From Photobacterium angustum (GTDB lineage: Bacteria; Pseudomonadota; Gammaproteobacteria; Enterobacterales; Vibrionaceae), in assembly GCF_002954615.1 (NCBI RefSeq), contig NZ_MSCJ01000001.1, positions 1,240,001 to 1,304,000 of the forward strand: DNA of 64,000 bases. The letters run 5' to 3'. The notes beneath the pieces are model-generated. The model was not told the DNA's origin and did not search any database. It worked only from the letters and a program-made list of their open reading frames with translations. Shown here one piece after another: positions 31,876 to 61,930 of the stretch (the stretch's first letter is position 1; every line of letters starts with the position of its first letter). The translations under genes and the position numbers were made by a program.

Positions 31876-32340
31876 ATGAAATATCAGCAGCTTGAAAATC
31901 TTGAAGCCGGTTGGAAATGGGCTTATTTAGTAAAAAAACATAAGGAAGGCGAATCAATTACACGCTTTATTGATCGCAGTGAAGCAGAAGCTGCTGTTGA
32001 GGCTCTTTTAGATATAGAACATGAACCAACAAAAGTGATTGAATGGATAAGTTCTAATATGTCTCCGGCGCTTGAAAATAAACTAAAGCAAGCTATTCGA
32101 GCAAAAAGGAAACGCCATTTTAATGCAGAACAAGTACATACACGTAAGAAATCAATCGACTTAGATTTCCGTGTTTGGGAAAAGTTGGCAGAAAAATCGC
32201 AAGAGTTAGGTTCTACATTATCCGATACTATCGAATATTTGATCAGTGAAAGTAACCGAACAGAGCTAGCTAACAAACAGGTTAGTGATATCAAGAATAA
32301 CCTGACAGAACTACTAAACATTGAATCCTTTGATAAATAA
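31876..32340 (+). CDS. matP: Macrodomain Ter protein MatP
   Basis: A 154-residue DNA-binding protein that organises the terminus macrodomain by binding matS sites (GTGACRNYGTCAC) and linking them to ZapB at the divisome. The N-terminal four-helix part (MKYQQLENLEAGWKW...), the ribbon-helix-helix segment around RKKSIDLDFRVWEKL (about 94-108), and the C-terminal coiled-coil/tetramerisation part are present; length fits E. coli MatP (150). Two perfect matS matches occur in this window, and the dif site lies 3.6 kb away. Confidence 0.95.
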   Translation: MKYQQLENLEAGWKWAYLVKKHKEGESITRFIDRSEAEAAVEALLDIEHEPTKVIEWISSNMSPALENKLKQAIRAKRKRHFNAEQVHTRKKSIDLDFRVWEKLAEKSQELGSTLSDTIEYLISESNRTELANKQVSDIKNNLTELLNIESFDK

Positions 32341-33996: not shown

Positions 33997-34780
33997 CGCA
34001 TTGCTCCTGGTTCACTTGTGAAGTTAAGTCAACATAGTGCTCATTATGCACACCTATTAATTTATAACGCTCACATAATCCACCGATAGGGAATGCGTAC
34101 CATTGACTAATGTCGCCTGTTTTATGATCAATGATTGCCTGTATCACAGGGTTTGGTAATTCAACACCATTATAATTAACAGATATACCATCAACATCTG
34201 TTGTATTAACAAAAAATAAGTACTGGTAGCAGACAAATAAAGTTGCTAAAAAGAAAAAGGTAACAATCAGAAAATCAAATAGACTGAATGTATTTAATTT
34301 ATTGAATAAGCTGTTTTTTTTCTTCTCAGTAATTACTTGTTTCTCAATGACGCTTTCTTGATGTTCTTGTAATTCTAACTTTTCTGCAATTTCATGTGCT
34401 TCTATATGTTTACTAATATCTTCTGCCAGAGGCGGGTGAGAACCATCGTCAGCTAGTGAGGTTTCCCTAATTGAGTAACCAAGTTTAGGCTCCGTTGTGA
34501 TGATATTATGTTCACCGATTTTACTAAATGAGGTACGAAGGTTTTTTATCGCTACAGTTAACGAATTATTCGTGACTATTTTTCCTTGCCAACACTCTTT
34601 TAGTAATGTTTCTCTATGCACAGTATTGTTTGCGGTGTTTGCTAGTAAAGCAAAGATATGAGTCTCTGAGCGTGACACTTTTAAAACAGCATTATCACTT
34701 ATACGAGTGATCGTTCTTCGCGAATAATCAACATCAAAACGACCAAAACGTTCGACTCCATTGTTTACTTCATCGTTCAT
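33989..34780 (-). CDS. ToxR-like transmembrane transcriptional regulator
   Basis: A 263-residue one-component regulator. An OmpR/ToxR-type winged-helix domain fills about 8-105 (FGRFDVDYSRRTITR... LLKECWQGKIVTNNSLTVAIKNLR... EPKLGYSI). A Glu-rich linker follows, then one membrane helix (about 167-190), then a short periplasmic domain of about 70 residues. Two cysteines near the end, in GGLCERYKL and NQEQCDA, could form a disulfide as in ToxR and TcpP. The domain order is that of ToxR, TcpP and CadC. It likely senses a periplasmic signal with the overlapping downstream gene. It is 1.2 kb from dif and next to decayed genes. Confidence 0.85.
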   Translation of the reverse strand: MNDEVNNGVERFGRFDVDYSRRTITRISDNAVLKVSRSETHIFALLANTANNTVHRETLLKECWQGKIVTNNSLTVAIKNLRTSFSKIGEHNIITTEPKLGYSIRETSLADDGSHPPLAEDISKHIEAHEIAEKLELQEHQESVIEKQVITEKKKNSLFNKLNTFSLFDFLIVTFFFLATLFVCYQYLFFVNTTDVDGISVNYNGVELPNPVIQAIIDHKTGDISQWYAFPIGGLCERYKLIGVHNEHYVDLTSQVNQEQCDA

Positions 34781-35031
34781 TATTTACTTATCAATAATAG
34801 AGTTGTCAAAGGGGATAACTACTCAAAAGAGAGGCTATTTTATACAAAAAAGGTATCGAATTCTATATTGATGCAACTATATGCTTGGCATATTATCATT
34901 TGTATATAAATTCTTCTGTTTTTTAATCAAATTGATAGTGAAAACGACTAATTTAGAAGCATTAAAAGATACGAGTGACGGTGTAACTATTTTATTTGAT
35001 GGTTATATCAGTGTAACTCTCTGTTTAATTA

Positions 35032-35163
35032 GCCATTAATCAGCTGAAAGAAGAAAGCTTGTTTTTATTCGTTGATAGTATTGAAACACATGAATTTAGC
35101 GACTACATGGTCGAACTGGTTGGAGAATTTAAACCAAGTAATTACAAAAAGCGACCAAGTTAA
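35032..35163 (+). pseudogene. C-terminal fragment of a decayed gene (dif region)
   Basis: An open stretch without a start codon reads QLKEESLFLFVDSIETHEF, continues as a protein-like sequence and ends in KPSNYKKRPS. A GTG-started fragment just upstream (from about 34937) in another frame reads NLEALKDTSDGVTILFDGY before a stop. Together they suggest one frameshifted small gene. No family is recognised. Confidence 0.45.
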
Positions 35164-35391
35164 ATAACATCGTAGTTATGTTTTCCTATTTCAAAATGTC
35201 CTCCTTATTCTCTAATTAAATGTCTCCTTTAAGGTAACTCTAGTTGGGATAAATTGAGTTATAGAGTAGGGAAGTCACGTTTTCTTTTGCTGGTTGTATT
35301 TCAGCTATTTCGTTTAAGAAAATTTCACTACCTTATCTAAGCGTTTGTTACTCACCATCAGACCTTGGGTTACATTTTCTAGTTTATCAAA

Positions 35392-35502
35392 ATGAAATTA
35401 ATCTTATCTGAAGAAGACCAAGCTTACAAAGCTGGACTTTATACATTAGATAGATCGAGCTTTACCGTTATTAATTTTTGGTCTCTAGAGCTTAAACGCT
35501 AG
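35392..35502 (+). pseudogene. 36-codon fragment of unknown gene (dif region)
   Basis: ATG-started reading frame beginning MKLILSEEDQAYKAGLYTLD and ending SLELKR. It has protein-like composition but no ribosome-binding site, and frames before and after it also look protein-like, so it is probably a piece of a larger decayed gene. A real 36-residue gene cannot be excluded. Confidence 0.4.
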
Positions 35503-35624
35503 GGATTGATAATTGTTGTGGTGTTAATCGCTTGGTTTAACTCGGATATTATCATTAATAGATGCTGACCAAGAAATCATTGAAAACTACAAATCAATTC
35601 TGGTGAACTAACAATGACAACTAA

Positions 35625-35918
35625 AGTGTCCAATATTTTTCTTACGATAATCACAACCAAATCCAGGCGATGGTTTCAAATATCACAGCCGAGAATGTAG
35701 AAGATGTACAGCGCAGCACCAACGATACATTTAAAATCGGCATGTGGTTTTTATCAAAAGTTATCGAAGGACATCAGTTTGAGATTTAGGGGCTATTCGA
35801 GTCAGCCGAAGCAACAATGAAGTTTGCACATGAGCATCATGGAATTACAAGTTATCGAGGTGCACCTGAATTTGATAGTGGTATGGACGAACTGCTTGAA
35901 GCACTTAAAACTCAGTAA
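35625..35918 (+). pseudogene. Decayed gene with in-frame stop (dif region)
   Basis: A 97-codon protein-like frame interrupted once, by TAG at 35787-35789. Upstream of the stop it contains NITAENVEDVQRSTNDTFKI and downstream ATMKFAHEHHGITSYRG, ending in LEALKTQ. Continuity of a plausible amphipathic protein on both sides shows a nonsense-inactivated gene. The start is missing. No family recognised. It ends 49 bp before dif. Confidence 0.6.
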
Positions 35919-35966
35919 GCAACAAATCTACCAAGCCAAATCACCATTATTTCAATATTATACTTA

Positions 35967-35994
35967 AGTGCGCATTATGTATATTATGTTAAAT
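35967..35994. other. dif: dif site (XerC/XerD chromosome dimer resolution site)
   Basis: A 28-bp site made of the XerC arm AGTGCGCATTA, the 6-base centre TGTATA and the XerD arm TTATGTTAAAT. The XerD arm is identical to the E. coli and V. cholerae dif arms, the XerC arm is the V. cholerae chromosome 1 version, and the centre equals that of E. coli (from memory). XerCD recombine dimeric chromosomes here, activated by FtsK. The chance of finding this by accident is negligible. It marks the replication terminus, in agreement with matP and matS nearby. Confidence 0.95.
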
Positions 35995-36207
35995 AAGGTG
36001 TTATTGTAACTATATCTAATCTTATCTTACTTACCTCCATACCTGATATCTCTACTCTGCTGAGGGTTTATTGTTGTATTTAACAGTATTGGCTATTTAC
36101 CATAAAATAGGTAATTAACATCAATTTTAAATACTGCTGCAAATGTTCAGTTTGCCTTGTACTTAAAGCTTGCTGTTAATTACTAGAGATTCGATTAATA
36201 CGAATCT

Positions 36208-38310
36208 CTAGATCGTACTTTCTGACTGCTGGTTTTCTTTCAGTTCTTGGTATTTTTCCAGCAACGCATCTAGCTCGTTTGAACAGATTGGTTTTGCTAA
36301 AAAACCATCCATACCAATATCATGATAAATTTTCTGGTCGCTTTGCATCGCATTCGCGGTTAATGCGACGATTGGTATACTAATTTTTCTCTGTCTAAGC
36401 TGTTTTGTTGCTTCTAAGCCATCTAATATCGGCATAGATATATCCATTAGCACTAAATCAAACTTATTGTGACCCTGTAACAGTACATTTATCGCTTCCT
36501 TTCCGTTATTAGTTATCGCAACTTTATGTCCTCGTCGCTCTAACATCAACTTAGCAACCAACTGATTGGTATTACTATCTTCGGCTAACAAAATATTTAA
36601 CGAGCAATCCGATTTGTTTTTAAATTTGATGTCGGCTTCGCAACTCTTTAATGATGGATAAATAATAGGAATAGAAATTTTAAAACAGCTTCCTGTACCT
36701 AACTCACTTTCCAGTGATATTGTGCCGTTCATCTTTTCGATTAAATGCTGGCTAATCGCTAGACCTAAACCTGTACCACCGTAACGACGAGTGATACTTC
36801 CATCCGCTTGATGAAATGGATTAAAGATATTTGCTTGCGCATCTTTAGCTATACCAATACCTGTATCGATGACTGCTATTTCAATATTGTCATCAACTTT
36901 ACGAGCAACAACACGAACCGAACCGATGCTCGTAAACTTTACAGCATTACCGATTAAATTAAATAACACTTGAGCAATTCGATTTTTGTCACCGTAGATT
37001 TGTTTTGGGATTGCATCGTCAATTTCACATTGAAATTGGACATTATTTTTAGTCGCTTGTGGTGCCAATTGATCAGCGACAAGTCTTATACTTTCCACAA
37101 CATTAATATCGCTATTGAAAAGCCTAAAACTCCCCGATTCTATTCTTGATAAGTCTAAGATGTCATTGATAATAGTCAGCAATAAATGTGCTGATTGGTC
37201 CATCTGTGATAACCAAAGATTTTGCTTATTATTCAAGCCAGATAAAGATAGCGATTCCATTAAACCTAATACTGCATTAAGTGGTGTTCGTATCTCATGA
37301 CTCATCATTGCTATGAATTGAGATTTTGCTTTGTTGGCCGTTTCTGCTTGTTTTTGTGCTTCCTGTAAATCAAATAAACGTTTTTTTCTACTTGTTATAT
37401 TTTTAGCAGTTCCTCGAAACCCTTGTAGTTTTCCATACTTATCAAAATAAGGTGTACCACTAAAGCTATACCACTGCTCTGTATTATCAACGCTAAGATT
37501 CCATTCTAAGTCTTCAAATACAACTTGCTGTGAGAGTTTACTCGTCAGTTTATTTTGGAATAATGGGTAGTTATTGAAGAATTCTATAAAGTTATCACAG
37601 GAAATTTGTGTATTAGCGACTTGAGGTTCTGAAATGTAAGTAAAGTTATAATCAACATCAATTTCCCAAAACCAATCACCTGCTGTTTTGGCAAAATCTT
37701 TAAATCGCTGCTGACTAAATGTCAGTTGTTGTGTTCGAGCTGCAACTAAGGATTGCAACCTTTCGCGATAATCTATATCAATGATCGCACGTGCAAGCAA
37801 TGGTCTAAATCTATTAAGCACTCGCCTACATCTTGGTGTGAACTGACTTTTATCGTGGCTCATTAAAATCATAACAGCATCACTAGAGCTTACTTTTACT
37901 CCCGTTAATAATGCTGAACTGTAATCATTTAAGGCTTCAATCGATTGTGTACTAAATTCAACAATATCTTTAGGTGAATATAGCGCAATGCATTCACCAT
38001 TGATTGCTCGTCTAAATGTACTTTCCATTAGCCAAGAGTTTGTACCAAAACGATTATCAGTACTGACCAGCACATCAAGCATTTCTTGTTCGTCTTCTCG
38101 AGTAAGAACTAGCGCTTGATCAAAACCTATAAACTTGCGTAGGACTTCTAATAAACTATTGAAAACTTGACGTTTATCATTCGCACCCGCCATTGCCGAG
38201 ATGCCTTCTAAGATGGCTTCATTCTCATCTTGTAATTGGCTTTCTCGCTCTTGACTGCGTAATAAATCAATGACTGTTTCTTGTAGCTTTTCAGATTCAG
38301 AACTTATCAT
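36208..38310 (-). CDS. Hybrid sensor histidine kinase (VpsS-like)
   Basis: A 700-residue soluble hybrid kinase with no membrane helix. Order: N-terminal coiled coil (1-35), GAF-like domain (about 35-185), PAS domain (about 208-318), HisKA with phospho-acceptor His338 in MMSHEIRTPLN, HATPase with the N box NLIGNAVKF near 450 and G boxes (DTGIGIA, YGGTGLGLAIS), and a receiver with Asp623 in LVLMDISMP and the C-terminal FLAKPI. It lacks an Hpt domain, so phosphate must pass to a separate Hpt protein. The FIST gene is 12 bp upstream. The pair resembles V. cholerae VpsS with NosP, where VpsS feeds LuxU and biofilm control (from memory). Confidence 0.88.
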   Translation of the reverse strand: MISSESEKLQETVIDLLRSQERESQLQDENEAILEGISAMAGANDKRQVFNSLLEVLRKFIGFDQALVLTREDEQEMLDVLVSTDNRFGTNSWLMESTFRRAINGECIALYSPKDIVEFSTQSIEALNDYSSALLTGVKVSSSDAVMILMSHDKSQFTPRCRRVLNRFRPLLARAIIDIDYRERLQSLVAARTQQLTFSQQRFKDFAKTAGDWFWEIDVDYNFTYISEPQVANTQISCDNFIEFFNNYPLFQNKLTSKLSQQVVFEDLEWNLSVDNTEQWYSFSGTPYFDKYGKLQGFRGTAKNITSRKKRLFDLQEAQKQAETANKAKSQFIAMMSHEIRTPLNAVLGLMESLSLSGLNNKQNLWLSQMDQSAHLLLTIINDILDLSRIESGSFRLFNSDINVVESIRLVADQLAPQATKNNVQFQCEIDDAIPKQIYGDKNRIAQVLFNLIGNAVKFTSIGSVRVVARKVDDNIEIAVIDTGIGIAKDAQANIFNPFHQADGSITRRYGGTGLGLAISQHLIEKMNGTISLESELGTGSCFKISIPIIYPSLKSCEADIKFKNKSDCSLNILLAEDSNTNQLVAKLMLERRGHKVAITNNGKEAINVLLQGHNKFDLVLMDISMPILDGLEATKQLRQRKISIPIVALTANAMQSDQKIYHDIGMDGFLAKPICSNELDALLEKYQELKENQQSESTI

Positions 38311-38322
38311 AGTATTAACAAC

Positions 38323-39486
38323 CTACCCTTTATGAAAAATAGCTGCTGAAATCATTAAGTTACCGTGCGCATTTTCACCACTGATGAATTGCCCCTGCTC
38401 ACCAAATGTAAATGGAGAAACATAAGGCTTATTTAACATTGCAATATTTACACCGATAGCAACATCATCCATGCGATTTTTTATTTTTAACATACATCCG
38501 GCACAAAAAATCGTAATTCCACCTATTGGGTTCAGCTTATTACCATTCGATGCTTTAACGACTCGACTAGCTCTAGAAATTAGTCGTTCATCAGTGCCGT
38601 TCATAAAGTACAAGCGTTCCCCCTGCTTTACTTCAGCAAACATTTCGATGCCCTTGCGCTGCGTAATATGTGCGGGATGAGCTAATTTAAAATAAGGTAA
38701 ATCGAAATATTCTCCAGCAAAACGCCCTAAAGGGTTTAAACTGCTTTCACTGATTATATTGCTGTTAGTATCAAATGGAATCTTCATCCATTGCTGATAA
38801 ACATCTGCTGCAGGTTTATTGTCTAGTTCTATAACTTCTCGATGTTCAACTTTGGTTGCTATCGCTGATAAACCAGTACTAGCATAGCCCGAATGAAATG
38901 ATAGACTTACTTCGCATGTCGGATAAAAAACAGCGATACCTATTCCCTGACCCGTTTGTTGTTCAACGTTAAATATTTGCCATTTCTCTGCAATGAAATC
39001 ATCAGCTGCTGATCCTCCAATAATAGGAACTGTACAGCCCAACTCTTTCTCTATACCTTGAATAACTTGTTCTTCATAACCCGGTGTTGCATGTAATAAA
39101 ATTAGAGATGGTAACTCGCCGACTCGACCACTATTATGAATCGCTTTTAATGTTGCTTGCCTTGCCATTTCATAAGGCGTTTCAAAATTTGAAATTATAG
39201 CTGTGCCATATGCTCCGTGATAATCATTAATCGCCCATAATGCTAAACCTGTTCCGCTAAAGTAGCCCTCATTTGTCATAAAACCCTGACATGATGTACA
39301 ACCTAAAATAGCTGTATTAGGAAATGATTTTTCAAGCTCAGCTTGGAAAATATTAATGTCATAATTTTCAGAATAATAGATAAGCAATAAAGAAGGCGTT
39401 GCAATTTTTAGATTAAGCTTATCAATAGCTTCATTAATAGCTTCGAAAGATGAAGATTGTATTGAGTAACTTGTTGTTATATCCAT
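38323..39486 (-). CDS. FIST-domain sensor protein (NosP-like)
   Basis: A 387-residue soluble protein with an N-terminal FIST domain (about 30-220, including LGCTSCQGFMTNEGYF near 60-75 and a GGSAADDF motif near 157-164) and a C-terminal FIST_C domain (about 225-365, ending near a FCAGCMLKIKNR stretch). FIST proteins bind small ligands; NosP members bind heme and nitric oxide and act on a neighbouring kinase. It is directly upstream of the hybrid kinase, so it most likely controls it. Heme binding here is inference; the ligand histidine was not identified. Confidence 0.85.
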   Translation of the reverse strand: MDITTSYSIQSSSFEAINEAIDKLNLKIATPSLLLIYYSENYDINIFQAELEKSFPNTAILGCTSCQGFMTNEGYFSGTGLALWAINDYHGAYGTAIISNFETPYEMARQATLKAIHNSGRVGELPSLILLHATPGYEEQVIQGIEKELGCTVPIIGGSAADDFIAEKWQIFNVEQQTGQGIGIAVFYPTCEVSLSFHSGYASTGLSAIATKVEHREVIELDNKPAADVYQQWMKIPFDTNSNIISESSLNPLGRFAGEYFDLPYFKLAHPAHITQRKGIEMFAEVKQGERLYFMNGTDERLISRASRVVKASNGNKLNPIGGITIFCAGCMLKIKNRMDDVAIGVNIAMLNKPYVSPFTFGEQGQFISGENAHGNLMISAAIFHKG

Positions 39487-41428: not shown

Positions 41429-43825
41429 ATGACAATAGACAAGCATGTGCATGATAAATGCTACCACTGTGGTGATCCCGTTCCTATCGGTAGCCAATTT
41501 GAAGTCGAGATATTAGGTAAACGTCGGCCTATGTGTTGTCTTGGCTGTGAAGCAGTAGCAACAACTATTGTTCAAAGTGGCCTTACTTCGTATTACGAGT
41601 ACCGAACTGAGCCAGCCGAAAAAGCCGATTTAGTCCCCGAACAGCTTAAGTCTCTCTCCCTTTATGATCACGTAGATATTCAGCAAGACTTTGTACGGAC
41701 GACAGATCAAAATTTCAGTGAGGTATCCCTTTCTGTTGAAGGTGTATCCTGTGCTGCTTGCGCATGGTTAATTGAAAAACAATTAATACGCGAAAATGGT
41801 GTTATTTCCATTCGTGTGAATACCACGACCCACCGTGCATTACTGGTGTGGGATCCAGAGCAAGTACAACTTAGCCATTTACTGTCTGTTATTCATAAAA
41901 TTGGCTATCAAGCCTCTCCTTTTGAAGCTGATGCCCAAGAGCAGCAATACCACAACATAATGAAGCAATATTTGTATAAGCTAGGTATTGCGGGCATTGC
42001 TACCATGCAAGTTATGATGCTTGCATTTGCGCTCTATTTTGAAGTGTTTGGCGATCTAGATGCTGAGTTTAAAAACTACCTCCGTTGGGTAAGCCTGATT
42101 TTTGCCACCCCCGTTTTACTGTACTCAGCACTCCCTTTTTACATTAATGCGTGGAGAAGCCTAAAAGCCTTCACATTAGGCATGGATGTACCTGTTTCGA
42201 TAGCATTATTGTTTGCTTACGGCGCCAGCCTTTACGCAACAGTGATGGAAAAAGGCGAAGTTTTCTTTGAATCAATTTCAATGTTTACGTTCTTTTTACT
42301 TCTCGGTCGATTCTTAGAAATGCGTGCCCGTCGACAAGCAGCGGCCGCCAGTGCAAATTTGTTAAAACTCATGCCAAATATGGCAACACTTGCTAATGGA
42401 GAGCAAGTTGTAGCAAAAACGCTTAAAATAGGTGACGTTGTCACTATATTGCCAGGGGAGCACTTCCCTGCAGATGGTGAAATAAATAAAGGATTAACAA
42501 CCGTTAATGAATCCATGTTAACGGGAGAGTCAGTGCCTGTAACTCGCGCGATTGGAGATAAGGTGTATGCAGGGACGATTAACGGTGATGCCAATGTCAC
42601 AATGACAGTTACAGTCAATAGAAATGACTCACTTATCTCTAATATCGTACGCTTACAAGATGAGGCTCAGCTCTCAAAACCTAAAGTGGCAGAGATCGCC
42701 GATAATGTAGCACGCTATTTTGTGGCCGCAATACTGATTATCGCAGCTAGCACTTGGTATTATTGGTATCAAAATCAACCTGATGATGCATTATGGATCA
42801 CATTAGCTGTCTTAGTTGCCACCTGTCCGTGTGCCCTATCATTAGCCACACCAACGGCTATTACCTGTTCAACGTCTACACTTAGTAAATTAGGGGTATT
42901 GCTTCGTCAAGGGCATGTATTAGAAACACTATGTAAAGTTAATCGGCTGGTATTAGATAAAACAGGCACCTTAACTGAAGGTAATGTTCGTTTAATTGCA
43001 ACACGTACGTTCGGAGACATAGATCAAGAAAAAACGTTGATGATTGCTGCGGAATTAGAGCGTTTCGCCAATCACCCAATTGCTCAAGCTTTTAGCCAAC
43101 ATCGCCAACAAAATGTACTTTTTGAAAATGTCGAAAATGTGATTGGCTGTGGTTTAAAAGCAACGCTAAATGGTGATGAGTGGCGCATTGGTAAATATGA
43201 CTTTGCTACCGATATTGAAAATAGTAAATCGTTTAAAAATAGTAATGAATTCTCAGTATGGTTAACTTGCAACCAGCAACCTATTGCAGCATTTCAATTA
43301 GACGACCCAATCCGTCAAGAAAGTGCTCTTTTAGTTAAACAATGCCAGCAACATGGTATTAAAGTCACAATGTTAACAGGTGATAATACTATTCATGCTA
43401 ATGGCGTTGCTAAACAACTGAATATTGATGAGGTTATTGCTAATCAAACACCACAAGGAAAGTTAGCATATTTAAATGAACTATCAGCAGATGACTTAGT
43501 ATTAATGGTAGGTGATGGGGTCAATGATGCCCCCGTTCTCGCTGGGGCTCATCTTTCTGTCGCTATGGGAGGTGGGACAGATATAGCTAAATCTTCAGCA
43601 GATATGGTACTACTTGGCGATAAATTAGGACGTATTTTAGAAGCCCATACTTTAGCGTTAAAGACTCGAAAAATTATTCGTGAGAATTTATCTTGGGCGC
43701 TTGGCTATAACTTGATAATCCTACCTCTGGCTGTTTCGGGATTGGTGGCGCCCTATTTTGCCGTTGTAGGTATGTCAGCTAGCTCAATCATCGTTGTATC
43801 AAATTCTTTAAGGTTATTAAAATAA
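41429..43825 (+). CDS. ccoI: Copper-translocating P1B-type ATPase CcoI (FixI)
   Basis: A 798-residue inner-membrane ATPase that exports copper for cbb3 oxidase assembly. The N terminus has a Cys-rich segment (CYHCGDPVP... MCCLGCEAVA) and a heavy-metal-binding domain with CAAC at Cys108/Cys111. Eight membrane helices are expected; the copper site CPC is Cys466-Cys468. The actuator loop TGES, the phosphorylation motif with Asp510 (DKTGTLTEGN), and the GDGVNDAP hinge motif are all intact. A TAAGGA ribosome-binding site lies 4 bases upstream. ccoS follows without a gap. The structural oxidase genes are missing here, so its product may serve an oxidase encoded elsewhere or another cuproenzyme. Confidence 0.94.
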   Translation: MTIDKHVHDKCYHCGDPVPIGSQFEVEILGKRRPMCCLGCEAVATTIVQSGLTSYYEYRTEPAEKADLVPEQLKSLSLYDHVDIQQDFVRTTDQNFSEVSLSVEGVSCAACAWLIEKQLIRENGVISIRVNTTTHRALLVWDPEQVQLSHLLSVIHKIGYQASPFEADAQEQQYHNIMKQYLYKLGIAGIATMQVMMLAFALYFEVFGDLDAEFKNYLRWVSLIFATPVLLYSALPFYINAWRSLKAFTLGMDVPVSIALLFAYGASLYATVMEKGEVFFESISMFTFFLLLGRFLEMRARRQAAAASANLLKLMPNMATLANGEQVVAKTLKIGDVVTILPGEHFPADGEINKGLTTVNESMLTGESVPVTRAIGDKVYAGTINGDANVTMTVTVNRNDSLISNIVRLQDEAQLSKPKVAEIADNVARYFVAAILIIAASTWYYWYQNQPDDALWITLAVLVATCPCALSLATPTAITCSTSTLSKLGVLLRQGHVLETLCKVNRLVLDKTGTLTEGNVRLIATRTFGDIDQEKTLMIAAELERFANHPIAQAFSQHRQQNVLFENVENVIGCGLKATLNGDEWRIGKYDFATDIENSKSFKNSNEFSVWLTCNQQPIAAFQLDDPIRQESALLVKQCQQHGIKVTMLTGDNTIHANGVAKQLNIDEVIANQTPQGKLAYLNELSADDLVLMVGDGVNDAPVLAGAHLSVAMGGGTDIAKSSADMVLLGDKLGRILEAHTLALKTRKIIRENLSWALGYNLIILPLAVSGLVAPYFAVVGMSASSIIVVSNSLRLLK
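42432..42444. other. matS: matS site (MatP binding), perfect consensus match
   Basis: GTGACGTTGTCAC fits the consensus GTGACRNYGTCAC at every position. It lies inside ccoI. A random match in 64 kb is expected only about once in 60 windows, and there are two here with matP itself. Confidence 0.85.
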
Positions 43826-50932: not shown

Positions 50933-52108
50933 TTAACTAAGTAATCCAGCAAAGAACTTCTTAACATGATCAACAAGGCGGCTGAAAATACTACCTTCTT
51001 CAACTGAATTTAGTGCAACAAGTGGTTGAGATGCCACTTCTTTACCATCGACCGAGTAAAGTACCTTGCCTACTACTTCACCTTTCGCGATAGGAGCATC
51101 AAGTTCACCGTTAAGCTCAACGCTTGCTGTCAACTTTTTAGTATCATTACGTGACAGTGTCACATAGCTTGAGCTATCAACACCCAACTCAACGTTTTCT
51201 TTATTACCAAACCAAACGCGCTCAGATAAGATTTTATCGCCAGCTTTATGCGGTACGACTGTTTCAAAGAATCGGAAACCGTAATTTAATAAAGCTTTAC
51301 TTTCACTTTCACGGGTTTTGGTACTTTTTGTTCCCATCACAACCGCAATTAAACGCATGTCACCTTCAGTTGCAGAACTTGTTAAGCTATATCCTGCACC
51401 GCTTGTGTAGCCGGTTTTCATGCCATCAACATTCATGCTTTTATCATATAACAAACCATTTCGGTTGCGTTGAGTAATATTGTTATATGTAAATGATTTC
51501 TCACTGTACAGCGGATAAATTGACGGTAAATCGCGAATTAACGCTTGGCCTAATAATGCAATATCATAAGGCGTAGTATAAAGATCGCTGTGATCTAAAC
51601 CATGAGGATTAGCAAAGTGTGTCGAATTCATTCCTAGCTTCTTAGCCCATGAATTCATTAACCCCACAAATGCTTGCTCAGATCCAGCTACGTGTTCAGC
51701 AAGTGCAACACTTGCATCATTACCGGATTGAATAATCAAACCACGGAACAAGTCCATTAGTGGTACTTCACTCCCTACTTCAATAAACATTTTTGAAGAA
51801 TCAGGGAAATTACGTGCCCAAGCATTACGGCTAATCACAACAATATCATCTTTACTGATATTGCCTTGTTTTATTTCCTGACCAGCAACATAGCTCGTCA
51901 TTAATTTCGTTAAGCTTGCAGGGTTTAATTTTTCGTTAGCATTCTTTTCAACTAATACTTGGCCTGTATTGTAGTCCATCAATACATAACCCTTTGCACT
52001 TAATGTCGGTGCATCAGGAATAACAGAAGGTGCTGCTAATGATGAAAACGACACAGTACAAAGCGCAGTTACACCAACGAGAGAAAAAAGCGGTGATGTC
52101 TTTTTCAT
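50933..52108 (-). CDS. dacA: D-alanyl-D-alanine carboxypeptidase (PBP5/6 family)
   Basis: A 391-residue periplasmic, membrane-bound enzyme that trims the terminal D-Ala of peptidoglycan pentapeptides. A signal peptide covers 1-25. The active site has Ser65 and Lys68 (SLTKLM), SGN (near 128) and KTG (in GMKTGYTSG, near 230). The C-terminal beta domain and an amphipathic anchor helix (about 375-391, with SRLVDHVKKFFAGLL) are present. The start is the ATG ending at 52108; a TTG three codons upstream is too close to the AAGGGA site. Length is near E. coli DacA (403). A perfect matS site lies within the gene. Confidence 0.94.
   Translation of the reverse strand: MKKTSPLFSLVGVTALCTVSFSSLAAPSVIPDAPTLSAKGYVLMDYNTGQVLVEKNANEKLNPASLTKLMTSYVAGQEIKQGNISKDDIVVISRNAWARNFPDSSKMFIEVGSEVPLMDLFRGLIIQSGNDASVALAEHVAGSEQAFVGLMNSWAKKLGMNSTHFANPHGLDHSDLYTTPYDIALLGQALIRDLPSIYPLYSEKSFTYNNITQRNRNGLLYDKSMNVDGMKTGYTSGAGYSLTSSATEGDMRLIAVVMGTKSTKTRESESKALLNYGFRFFETVVPHKAGDKILSERVWFGNKENVELGVDSSSYVTLSRNDTKKLTASVELNGELDAPIAKGEVVGKVLYSVDGKEVASQPLVALNSVEEGSIFSRLVDHVKKFFAGLLS
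51151..51163. other. matS: matS site (MatP binding), perfect consensus match
   Basis: GTGACAGTGTCAC fits the consensus GTGACRNYGTCAC at every position. It lies inside dacA, 15 kb from dif and 8.7 kb from the first matS match. Confidence 0.85.
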
Positions 52109-52466: not shown

Positions 52467-53951
52467 ATGAGCTATTATCAAAAATTAGAACAGCATGCTC
52501 GTAAGTTATCGCGTTTAGACCATCTAAGTGCAATATGTGGTTGGGATCAAGCAGCAATGATGCCAAGTGGCGGTGCTGAAGCTCGCTCTGAAGCAATGGC
52601 TGAACTTGCCGTTATTACACATGAATTATCAACCGCTGATTACCTTGCTGATTGGTTTGAACAAGCAGAGCAAGAGCAATTATCTGATGCCGAGCGTATC
52701 AGCCTTGCTGCGTTAAAGCGCCAATGGATGATGCATAACATTTTGCCAGCCGAGTTGGTGGAGCAAAAATCCTTATTAGGCTCACAATGTGAACATGCTT
52801 GGCGTACCCAGAGAAAAGAAAATGATTGGGAAGGATTTAAACAAAATTTAGCTCCTGTCGTTAAACTCGCACGCCAAGAAGCGGCTATTCGCTCTAAAGC
52901 AACAGGATTAAGCCTGTATGATGCCCTGCTCGATCTTTACGAACCGGGAATGACATCTGAAATTCTTGACGGTATTTTTGCTGATGTAAAATCGTGGTTG
53001 CCGCATCTCATTCAAGATGTACAAAATAAGCAGAAAAATGAAGCCGTATTGCCTCTAAGTGGAACATTCCCGATTGCCGAGCAAAACGCACTTAGCCTAG
53101 ACGTCATGAAATTATTAAATTTTGATTTTAATCATGGGCGTTTAGATATCAGTACTCACCCATTCTGTGGTGGTGTATCAACCGATGTACGTATTACAAC
53201 GCGTTATGATGAAACTGATTTTACATCAGCGTTAATGGGCGTTATTCATGAAACCGGTCATGCACGTTATGAGCAAGGCTTACCGCATCAATGGCGAGAT
53301 CTACCTGTAGGCCAAGCCCGCTCAATGGGGATTCATGAAAGTCAGTCACTGTTTTTTGAAATGCAGCTTTCACGCAATATCGATTTTGCAAGAAAATTGG
53401 CACCGTTAGCACAGAAAACATTTAACCGTGAAACCGATAGTGCGCTAACGGCTGAAAACCTCAACACTATTAATACTCGTGTTAAACCGGGTTTTATTCG
53501 TGTTGATGCTGACGAAGTGACTTACCCTGCCCACGTAATTCTGCGTTATGAAATTGAACGTGATCTTATTGAAGGCAATATCGAAGTTGATGACATTCCT
53601 GTTATTTGGGATCAAAAAATGCAGGCTTACCTTGGTATTGATACTAAAGGTAACTTCAAAGACGGCTGTATGCAGGATATTCACTGGACTGACGGTAGTT
53701 TTGGTTATTTTCCATCTTATACGCTAGGTGCAATGTACGCCGCACAATTTATGGCTGCAATGAAGAAAGTAGTAGATGTTGAAGCTGCAATCACATCAGG
53801 AGATTTATCCCCTATTTTCGCATGGCTTGAAACGAATATCTGGTCAAAAGGATGTACGCTATCTACAGACGAATTAGTTAAACAAGCGACAGGGGAAACA
53901 TTAAATCCTCGTTTCTTTAAACAGCATTTAATAGCACGTTATAACCAGTAA
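52467..53951 (+). CDS. M32 carboxypeptidase (Taq family)
   Basis: A 494-residue cytoplasmic metallocarboxypeptidase. The zinc site HExxH is His261-Glu262-Thr-Gly-His265, followed by the third ligand Glu in IHESQSLFFE near residue 290. The family motifs DVRITTRY (near 245), the long helical N-terminal half and GSFGYFPSYTLG near 410 are present. Length matches the Taq carboxypeptidase (about 500). Likely a general peptide recycler. A plain ATG start without a strong ribosome-binding site. Confidence 0.92.
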   Translation: MSYYQKLEQHARKLSRLDHLSAICGWDQAAMMPSGGAEARSEAMAELAVITHELSTADYLADWFEQAEQEQLSDAERISLAALKRQWMMHNILPAELVEQKSLLGSQCEHAWRTQRKENDWEGFKQNLAPVVKLARQEAAIRSKATGLSLYDALLDLYEPGMTSEILDGIFADVKSWLPHLIQDVQNKQKNEAVLPLSGTFPIAEQNALSLDVMKLLNFDFNHGRLDISTHPFCGGVSTDVRITTRYDETDFTSALMGVIHETGHARYEQGLPHQWRDLPVGQARSMGIHESQSLFFEMQLSRNIDFARKLAPLAQKTFNRETDSALTAENLNTINTRVKPGFIRVDADEVTYPAHVILRYEIERDLIEGNIEVDDIPVIWDQKMQAYLGIDTKGNFKDGCMQDIHWTDGSFGYFPSYTLGAMYAAQFMAAMKKVVDVEAAITSGDLSPIFAWLETNIWSKGCTLSTDELVKQATGETLNPRFFKQHLIARYNQ

Positions 53952-61093: not shown

Positions 61094-61930
61094 TTACGCA
61101 TTAAAGACATCTTTATCTATCTTATCAACTGGTGGCTCACCGCCATCTTGCGGAGGTTGCTCATCATCACTTTTTGCCACAGAAGTAACTTGTAATGTTA
61201 CGCCAAACATATTTCGGTAGATAATACCTTTAACGTTAAAGAAGAAAGGTAATGTCCAAATCAAACCGATACCTGCAGTAGCAATTGAGATAAAGAACAT
61301 TAGCATGATCACAATATAGATTGCCGTCATTGGCAATACTTTACGGATCGTTGCCATGAAAGAGTATTGGATCGCTTTTATTGGTGATACTTTCTTTTCA
61401 CACACTAATAAAATAGCCATGCTTAATGCCATTGTGAGGAACAAGCCAATTAATGGGAAAACACTGCTGCCCAACCCTTGAATTGAAGAAAGCAGTAACA
61501 TGGTAATTAATGAGACAAGGGTAAAAGAAAACCCTTTAACTATCTGGCTTGGTTTACTTGGTAAACCTACTGCATGGTTTAATGCCATTAAGCTAACACC
61601 CACATAAAGTGGTGCAATAAGCACATCAGACCAAAAGTTAGCCATAAAGCCCGCTTTTAGTATTTCTGGTGTAAAGCCCTGCCCTGTAATGAAAGCATCA
61701 AAAAATACCGTTGGGCTACCTAATTGAACTTCGAGCCCTAAAAGTAACAATGCAACTTGCGCAAGAAACAAACAAATGACCGCAGGTAAAAAACTAAAGA
61801 TGTTTTTCCCTGTGATTTTCCATGCTTCAGCTAAAACGGTGACAGGTTGTAATTCAACCTCCCCCTTCAATGCTTTTTCAATAGACCCACCAATGTGGAA
61901 GCTTCGATTAATTGGCTCTTTCATACTCAT
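61094..61930 (-). CDS. Multi-pass inner-membrane protein of unknown function
   Basis: A 278-residue protein with a soluble N-terminal part (about 1-40), six probable membrane helices between about 45 and 240, and a polar, Asp/Pro-rich C-terminal tail (SDDEQPPQDGGEPPVDK). The layout resembles small uncharacterised proteins related to YciC, but I do not see a decisive motif. It is divergent from potA, with a 438-bp gap. Function unknown. Confidence 0.65.
   Translation of the reverse strand: MSMKEPINRSFHIGGSIEKALKGEVELQPVTVLAEAWKITGKNIFSFLPAVICLFLAQVALLLLGLEVQLGSPTVFFDAFITGQGFTPEILKAGFMANFWSDVLIAPLYVGVSLMALNHAVGLPSKPSQIVKGFSFTLVSLITMLLLSSIQGLGSSVFPLIGLFLTMALSMAILLVCEKKVSPIKAIQYSFMATIRKVLPMTAIYIVIMLMFFISIATAGIGLIWTLPFFFNVKGIIYRNMFGVTLQVTSVAKSDDEQPPQDGGEPPVDKIDKDVFNA
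61677..61684 (-). other. Possible KOPS (FtsK-orienting sequence)
   Basis: GGGCAGGG on the minus strand matches GGGNAGGG. Read in that orientation it points left, towards dif, as required for FtsK to run to dif. A single site is weak evidence, since GGGNAGGG should occur about once per 8 kb per strand in random sequence of 50 percent GC, less often here. Confidence 0.4.

Follow-up and report, generated by a model that had tools for sequence, protein, structure and literature searches.

The chromosome 1 dif site of Photobacterium angustum and an inverted dif-like companion recurrent in Vibrionaceae

The dif1 locus and the terminus of chromosome 1

The window, a stretch of 64,000 nucleotides that corresponds to positions 1240001-1304000 of contig C1 of a Photobacterium angustum genome, contains at 35967-35994 (C1 position 1275967) the 28-mer AGTGCGCATTA-TGTATA-TTATGTTAAAT, which divides into an 11-bp XerC arm, a 6-bp centre and an 11-bp XerD arm. 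The letters are exactly those that the initial annotation had given for a dif site at this place. The features referred to below are as follows (coordinates are those of the window).

31876-32340, plus strand: matP (Pfam MatP and MatP_C)
35967-35994, plus strand: dif of chromosome 1 (sequence read, mismatch searches, related loci)
35967-35977, plus strand: XerC arm of dif
35978-35983, plus strand: centre of dif, TGTATA
35984-35994, plus strand: XerD arm of dif
35995-36094, no strand: spacer of 100 bp from dif to companion, different in sequence from species to species
36078-36088, minus strand: further XerD-arm-like stretch, TACTGTTAAAT, just beyond the companion (by eye)
36095-36122, minus strand: companion, GATGTTAATTA-CCTATT-TTATGGTAAAT, inverted, on the XerD side of dif at a distance of 100 bp
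36208-38310, minus strand: hybrid histidine kinase, neighbour of the chromosome 1 dif across the group
38323-39486, minus strand: FIST-domain protein, the next conserved neighbour
42432-42444, no strand: matS match, GTGACGTTGTCAC
51151-51163, no strand: matS match, GTGACAGTGTCAC
53525-53532, minus strand: KOPS, GGGCAGGG, pointing to dif (KOPS search)
61677-61684, minus strand: KOPS, GGGCAGGG, pointing to dif, the one named earlier (KOPS search)

The genes lie in the order MatP, DUF3634, PCC-domain protein, Trans_reg_C regulator, dif, hybrid histidine kinase, FIST, SDR, and matP is 3.6 kb from dif, as had been claimed. Many named Photobacterium loci have this block around an identical 28-mer, and Vibrio and Aliivibrio have part of it, so that the proposed comparison with other Vibrionaceae yields an identical site in the same neighbourhood, whole or partial, in many named records of the three genera; other named loci have none of the block genes within the stretch available. 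The closest of the named loci compared are those of Photobacterium sp. GB-56 and Ph5, the neighbouring proteins being 83-99% identical. The region is AT-rich, and the gene-free gap that had been noticed beside dif is real: 34.78-35.97 kb holds no ORF of at least 60 aa, and a 46-residue piece encoded there has no Pfam match. In Photobacterium sp. Ph5 (locus L079) the counterpart of 34780-35966 is broken up and contains ORFs that by eye resemble transposase genes, which gives the gap the look of a decayed stretch prone to insertions. Comparison of 34700-36300 with a phage collection by blastn gave no match that would mark a prophage remnant at dif, and 35700-36400 has no Rfam match to an RNA gene.

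Within the window the 28-mer is the sole match at up to 3 mismatches, and none of 100 shuffles contains one. The genome (4.89 Mb in four contigs) has just two matches at the same threshold, one on C1 (2,977,068 bases) and one, with the centre TGTACC, on C3 (1,623,367 bases, the second replicon); a rival dif-like site on C1 was thus sought and not found at up to 3 mismatches. Since there is one match per replicon, we take the sites on C1 and C3 to be dif of chromosomes 1 and 2, respectively. The 28-mer is dif1, a site of an already known kind, in a genome of the Photobacterium group: it has the 28-bp architecture, is single on its replicon, sits at the switch of GC skew and of KOPS polarity and is roughly opposite to the origin. 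XerC and XerD, activated by FtsK arriving along KOPS, would resolve dimers of chromosome 1 there.

Over C1:1160001-1384000 the cumulative GC skew has its maximum at 1273180, and dif is 2.8 kb from that point. All 16 stretches sampled to the left of dif are G-rich and 17 of 18 to its right are C-rich, the sole exception lying at 2957 kb, beyond the presumed origin. KOPS tell the same: 76 of the 79 on C1 fit a single polarity switch, and the best switch interval, 1216-1293 kb, has dif inside it. Both checks that had been proposed, skew and KOPS polarity, accordingly come out in favour of dif. The initial annotation had named one KOPS to the right of dif, at 61677, which does point to it; there are two in the window, the one at 53525 included. 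Scored with what we take to be the matS motif, C1 has 7 matches, 6 of them at most 120 kb from dif. Gene orientation had also been invoked, and 13 of 18 ORFs to the left do run towards dif; to the right 9 of 20 do so (both sets picked by eye).

A stronger statement, that dif fixes the replication terminus, goes too far. The site is where dimers are resolved and where polarity switches, but it need not fix the point at which replication forks meet: a Tus profile (PF05472), which does find its match in E. coli as a control, has no match in this genome, the Tus protein of a Tus/Ter fork trap thus being undetected by that search, and V. cholerae terminates replication without a fork trap (according to the part of PMC6549158 drawn on here). 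The gene dnaA is at 2919 kb on C1, and mnmG and parAB, recognised by eye from about 2932 kb onwards, presumably mark the vicinity of oriC. With oriC placed beside mnmG, at 2.932 Mb, the replichores would be unequal, about 1.32 and 1.66 Mb.

An inverted companion on the XerD side of dif

A loose genus-wide search for dif brought up, again and again, a weak second match 100-160 bp away and on the other strand. This is the companion; at the present locus its XerC-like arm is identical to that of dif at 6 of 11 positions and its XerD-like arm at 10 of 11. An arm test that uses no companion motif scores the 22 arm positions of each locus's dif against the 300 bp on either side, in both orientations. 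Of 105 loci, 77 entered it, 28 duplicates or loci with less than 300 bp of flank being left out. A score of at least 15/22 is reached downstream in inverted orientation in 70 of the 77 loci, as against 1 downstream on the same strand, 3 upstream on the same strand and 2 upstream inverted; shuffles of the downstream DNA, which keep single-base composition only, reach it in 10 of 385 cases. The companion arms match dif at 16-19 of the 22 bases in 68 of the 77 loci.

The 70 companions share features for which the arm search never asked. The XerD arm is TTATGGTAAAT in every one, where dif has TTATGTTAAAT; base 6 of the centre is T in all 70, the neighbouring dif having A in 60, C in 9 and G in 1; positions 3-4 of the centre are TA throughout; and positions 8-11 of the XerC arm read ATTA, each base in at least 69 of the 70. 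An active Xer partner would have a centre identical to that of dif, and the companion's centre equals its neighbour's in none of the 70 loci. Because these differences from dif are fixed and shared, the companion looks like a site derived from dif and held different from it. The conserved feature is not a palindrome: the TTACC/GGTAA symmetry of Photobacterium gives way in other genera to TTAGG, TTAAG, TTATC or TTATA in the left half. Some lesser features accompany it. A XerD-arm-like stretch similar to that at 36078-36088 follows the companion in many loci at a slightly variable distance (by eye), a small hairpin with a stem of at least 4 lies beyond its XerC side in 40 of 82 loci (about 17 expected from shuffles), and the dif strand of the spacer has a pyrimidine-rich run in many species (by eye), as at 35995-36094.

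The pair was sought across the family as the exact pattern TTATGTTAAAT-N60..120-ATTTACCATAAA, that is, on one side, in one orientation and at gaps of 60-120. It occurs in 267 of 329 Vibrionaceae genomes, in 11 of 13 genera, at least twice in 198 of those 267 (counted by eye); the reversed-pattern control gives 0, as do 368 other genomes drawn from the class outside Vibrionaceae. In the genus, 83 of 92 companion cores (22 bases, matched with at most 2 mismatches) have a dif no more than 300 bp away, a count in which nearness is partly circular for three dif positions derived from pair coordinates (arm only); 8 of the others are farther off on the same contig, at 0.96-43 kb, and 1 is on a contig without a listed dif. 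Among 74 named loci the companion is present in 65, every match being exact in a search that allowed up to 2 mismatches; it is absent in 7, over a downstream stretch of up to 6 kb, and 2 loci end too early. Two genomes (G191 and G312) carry the published dif1 28-mer of V. cholerae N16961 (given in the part of PMC2731167 consulted), with a companion 68-69 bp away.

In 62 of the 329 genomes the pair pattern is missing in the searched form and range. At least three of these (G017, G049, G087) do have a companion, which either stands at a different distance or is spelled differently. Of 53 of them searched for dif, 49 have a match, and one dif site was read in each of 30: 28 are without a companion, one sequence ends after 68 bp and one, G087, is a variant. 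In seven of the 28 all that resembles an arm is a stretch with 2 mismatches, which we ascribe to chance. The G087 variant, GGTGTACATTA-CCTATT-TTATGTTAAAT, stands 48 bp from dif on both replicons and is a nearly perfect inverted dif; it is the exception to the rule that companions have TTATGGTAAAT as their XerD arm, and this complete XerD arm supports a descent of the companion from a true dif. Among the named loci, one absence has a visible cause: at locus L040 an integrase-bearing island lies on the XerD side of dif, and the 6 kb searched there hold no companion.

The distance between the two sites ranges from 68 to 181 bp in the loci read. In 82 distinct loci, a set that required an exact 15-base core, so that its invariant columns are invariant partly by construction, the gaps cluster at 78-80, 87-90, 100-101 and 110-112, with peaks near 79, 89, 100 and 111 bp and none at 92-99; gaps of 118-119, 128, 134, 144 and 159-181 bp also occur. 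There is a hint of helical phasing in this spacing, the resultant R being 0.51 at 10.6 bp for 150 pairs among the matches listed, from 89 genomes that are related to each other. With gaps made unique per genus (n=53) R falls to 0.28, with p of about 0.045 against a jitter null, so that the phasing is weak once relatedness is reduced, and strict phasing is suggestive at most.

A search confined to the literature under open licence (subscription papers and preprints lying outside it) found no report of the companion. The dif site itself is known; the composite locus of dif and companion is new as far as that search reaches.

Two chromosomes and mobile DNA

The dif centres of the two chromosomes are equal in none of the 47 genomes of the genus (from 52) for which two dif sites are listed, 42 of them from one search and five completed from the loose genus-wide one; about 12.8 would be expected from the pool of centres, relatedness being ignored. 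Val et al. refer to preliminary evidence that equal dif sites lead to chromosome fusions (PMC2533119). Three loci (L231, L232 and L235, of G011, G023 and G045) have TGTACC in the context of chromosome 1, with kinase, FIST and SDR, and TGTATA at the other site; TGTACC elsewhere marks chromosome 2, and the centres of these three genomes look swapped between chromosomes. In G034, G044, G074, G098 and others the spacers of the two sites of one genome are identical or nearly so over 80 letters, so that the unit of dif and companion seems to have been copied between chromosomes; elsewhere the two spacers of a genome differ.

The 28-mer also occurs in 18 viral contigs (L106-L123), in all of which the longer part lies on the XerC side; viral DNA that extends on that side does not part dif from its companion. 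On the XerD side 14 of them continue into the companion, and the other four hold 44-72 bp there, too little to be informative.

Beside dif2 of the present genome matters are more elaborate. An island of about 19 kb (C3:999490-1018786; L226, L155) lies on the XerD side. Of two companions there, the proximal one stands 181 bp from dif2 and the other, an exact one, on the far side of the island at a distance of 19 kb; a degraded XerD-like arm lies about 118 bp before this distal one. The island has a block of four genes: two integrase-like ones, placed first, a long one and a short one, the last two without a family. The set resembles those of SE or GInt elements, for which the descriptions in PMC9345347 and PMC10214605 (in the parts drawn on) served as comparison; a plain SE label was dropped, as gene order fails to decide between the two. 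The SE papers, as far as these portions go, describe other targets, and the word dif is absent from PMC10214605. G017 is arranged similarly, with a proximal companion at 128 bp, a distal one 32 kb off with a degraded arm before it and, between the companions, homologues of all four island genes (31-38% identical), though about 18 kb from dif and not beside it. This suggests that integrating elements can rebuild the pair of dif and companion on entry. The island of L040 is a counter-example.

What the companion may do

In Vibrionaceae dif is mostly one of two sites, an inverted companion standing about 70-180 bp off. In the loci tested this companion is on the XerD side and in one orientation, and its sequence is conserved. 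On the proposal that we put forward it would be a Xer-binding site that does not recombine and acts in cis on dif, a reading whose chances we regard as evenly balanced. From what is known of Xer systems, an arm one base off a XerD arm probably binds XerD, and the companion would thus bind XerD, and XerC weakly. It would be no recombination partner, its centre being incompatible because, in the loci read, the base next to the XerD arm is always T and never T in dif; Xer biology also suggests that an inverted site of this kind can form a synapse in which no productive exchange follows. A small DNA loop would then bring together the XerCD bound at the two sites, and this non-productive contact in cis would hold or load the recombinases at dif until FtsK comes from the XerD side and removes it, upon which two dif sites could pair. 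Looping and gating are the least certain part of the proposal. In the full version Vibrionaceae would resolve chromosome dimers at a composite site: the recombinases that act on dif would also bind an inverted pseudo-dif, itself dead for recombination, and a short cis loop between the two would gate dif until the arrival of FtsK. We hold this version as tentative and, on balance, doubtful. For the proposal speak the arm test, the features shared by the 70 companions, the spread of the pair through the family, the nearness of the cores to dif in the genus, the G087 variant, the viral contigs and the peaks in spacing. Against it stand the 62 genomes without the pair in the form and range searched, the weak phasing, the gaps outside the main clusters and the companion-less island of L040. 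Nor need the companion be essential, since dif1 and dif2 of V. cholerae recombine FtsK-dependently in an E. coli reporter (PMC2533119, the part drawn on giving no flank lengths).

The main rival makes the pair a fossil: a filamentous phage of CTX type would have entered an ancestral dif with its double attachment site, from which the pair descends, the companion since being carried along and copied between chromosomes without function. It has the architecture on its side, attP1 and attP2 of CTXφ being inverted and 90 bp apart (as given in the portions of PMC4246890 and PMC5357621 consulted), and so too the spacers of G044 and G074, which agree between chromosomes as a copied unit would. A relic would not be expected to preserve one and the same XerD arm in all 70 loci as the spacer diverges, or to keep to one side and orientation (70 of 77 loci, against 1-3 of 77 elsewhere). 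We think this origin unlikely.

That another protein, a regulator or chromosome organiser, binds the companion, whose likeness to dif would be ancestry only, is distinctly unlikely. The companion's diagnostic bases do depart consistently from those of dif, as they might under selection for a different binder, and part of the family seems to have lost the companion outright; arms that agree with dif at 16-19 of 22 positions in most loci, the full XerD arm of G087, the lack of an Rfam match and a place beside dif on both chromosomes despite different neighbouring genes all argue the other way.

XerD is an unloader of SMC complexes in Bacillus, and the companion, instead of partnering dif, could with XerD bound to it block or unload a complex of SMC type, or be a place where FtsK loads or stops. 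A XerD-type arm on the XerD side, facing dif, with none found upstream, would suit such a role, and short-range elements may matter, as E. coli has a KOPS 124 bp from dif on the XerD side (PMC2680272, in the part referred to). A roadblock could do without a preferred distance from dif and without the XerC half that is retained here (the ATTA of positions 8-11), and we rate it as improbable. Finally, that only dif matters and the companion is an effect of chance or composition in AT-rich terminus DNA, such as this region is, is hardly credible and is refuted by the position, shuffle, reversed-pattern and outgroup controls, which are all near zero.

To return to the companion as a Xer-binding site acting in cis: to our knowledge, dif is generally held to need nothing beyond XerCD and FtsK, and a conserved Xer-like second site, if it is such a cis element, would be an overlooked part of a well-studied recombination system. 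If the composite site is real, dif would carry its own control element, retained on both chromosomes and for the most part spared by mobile DNA, and the folded double attachment site of CTX-type phages may descend from it. The companion would then bear on how two chromosomes are kept unfused and on the origin of the double att sites of filamentous vibriophages.

The nearest relatives of the locus are dif1 and dif2 of V. cholerae, which share with it the 11-6-11 form, a position where skew and KOPS polarity switch on each chromosome, and centres that differ between the chromosomes. For these sites Val et al. 2008 (PMC2533119, in the passage on the flanking DNA), the single paper found to have examined Vibrio for such elements, report no conserved motif that could bind accessory proteins, whereas a flanking motif is found here in most Vibrionaceae genomes searched, including the two (G191 and G312) with the N16961 dif1. 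The dif of E. coli K-12 has the same centre, TGTATA, and the same XerD arm but, when up to 3 mismatches to the core are allowed, no companion out to 600 bp, and E. coli differs further in matching the Tus profile, to which this genome has no match. ColE1 cer and pSC101 psi likewise combine a Xer core site with extra sequence within about 200 bp, and the XerD arm of cer is TTATGGTAAAT; their accessory sequence binds PepA with ArgR or ArcA (in the part of the literature drawn on), whereas the extra sequence here is an inverted Xer-like site. Closest in form are attP1 and attP2 of CTXφ, as described in the sources at hand: both loci consist of two inverted dif-like sites at about the same distance, 90 bp there and 100 bp here, but one of the two is here the chromosomal dif with its 6-bp centre, and the pair is spread through a bacterial family, the present locus having no match in the phage collection.
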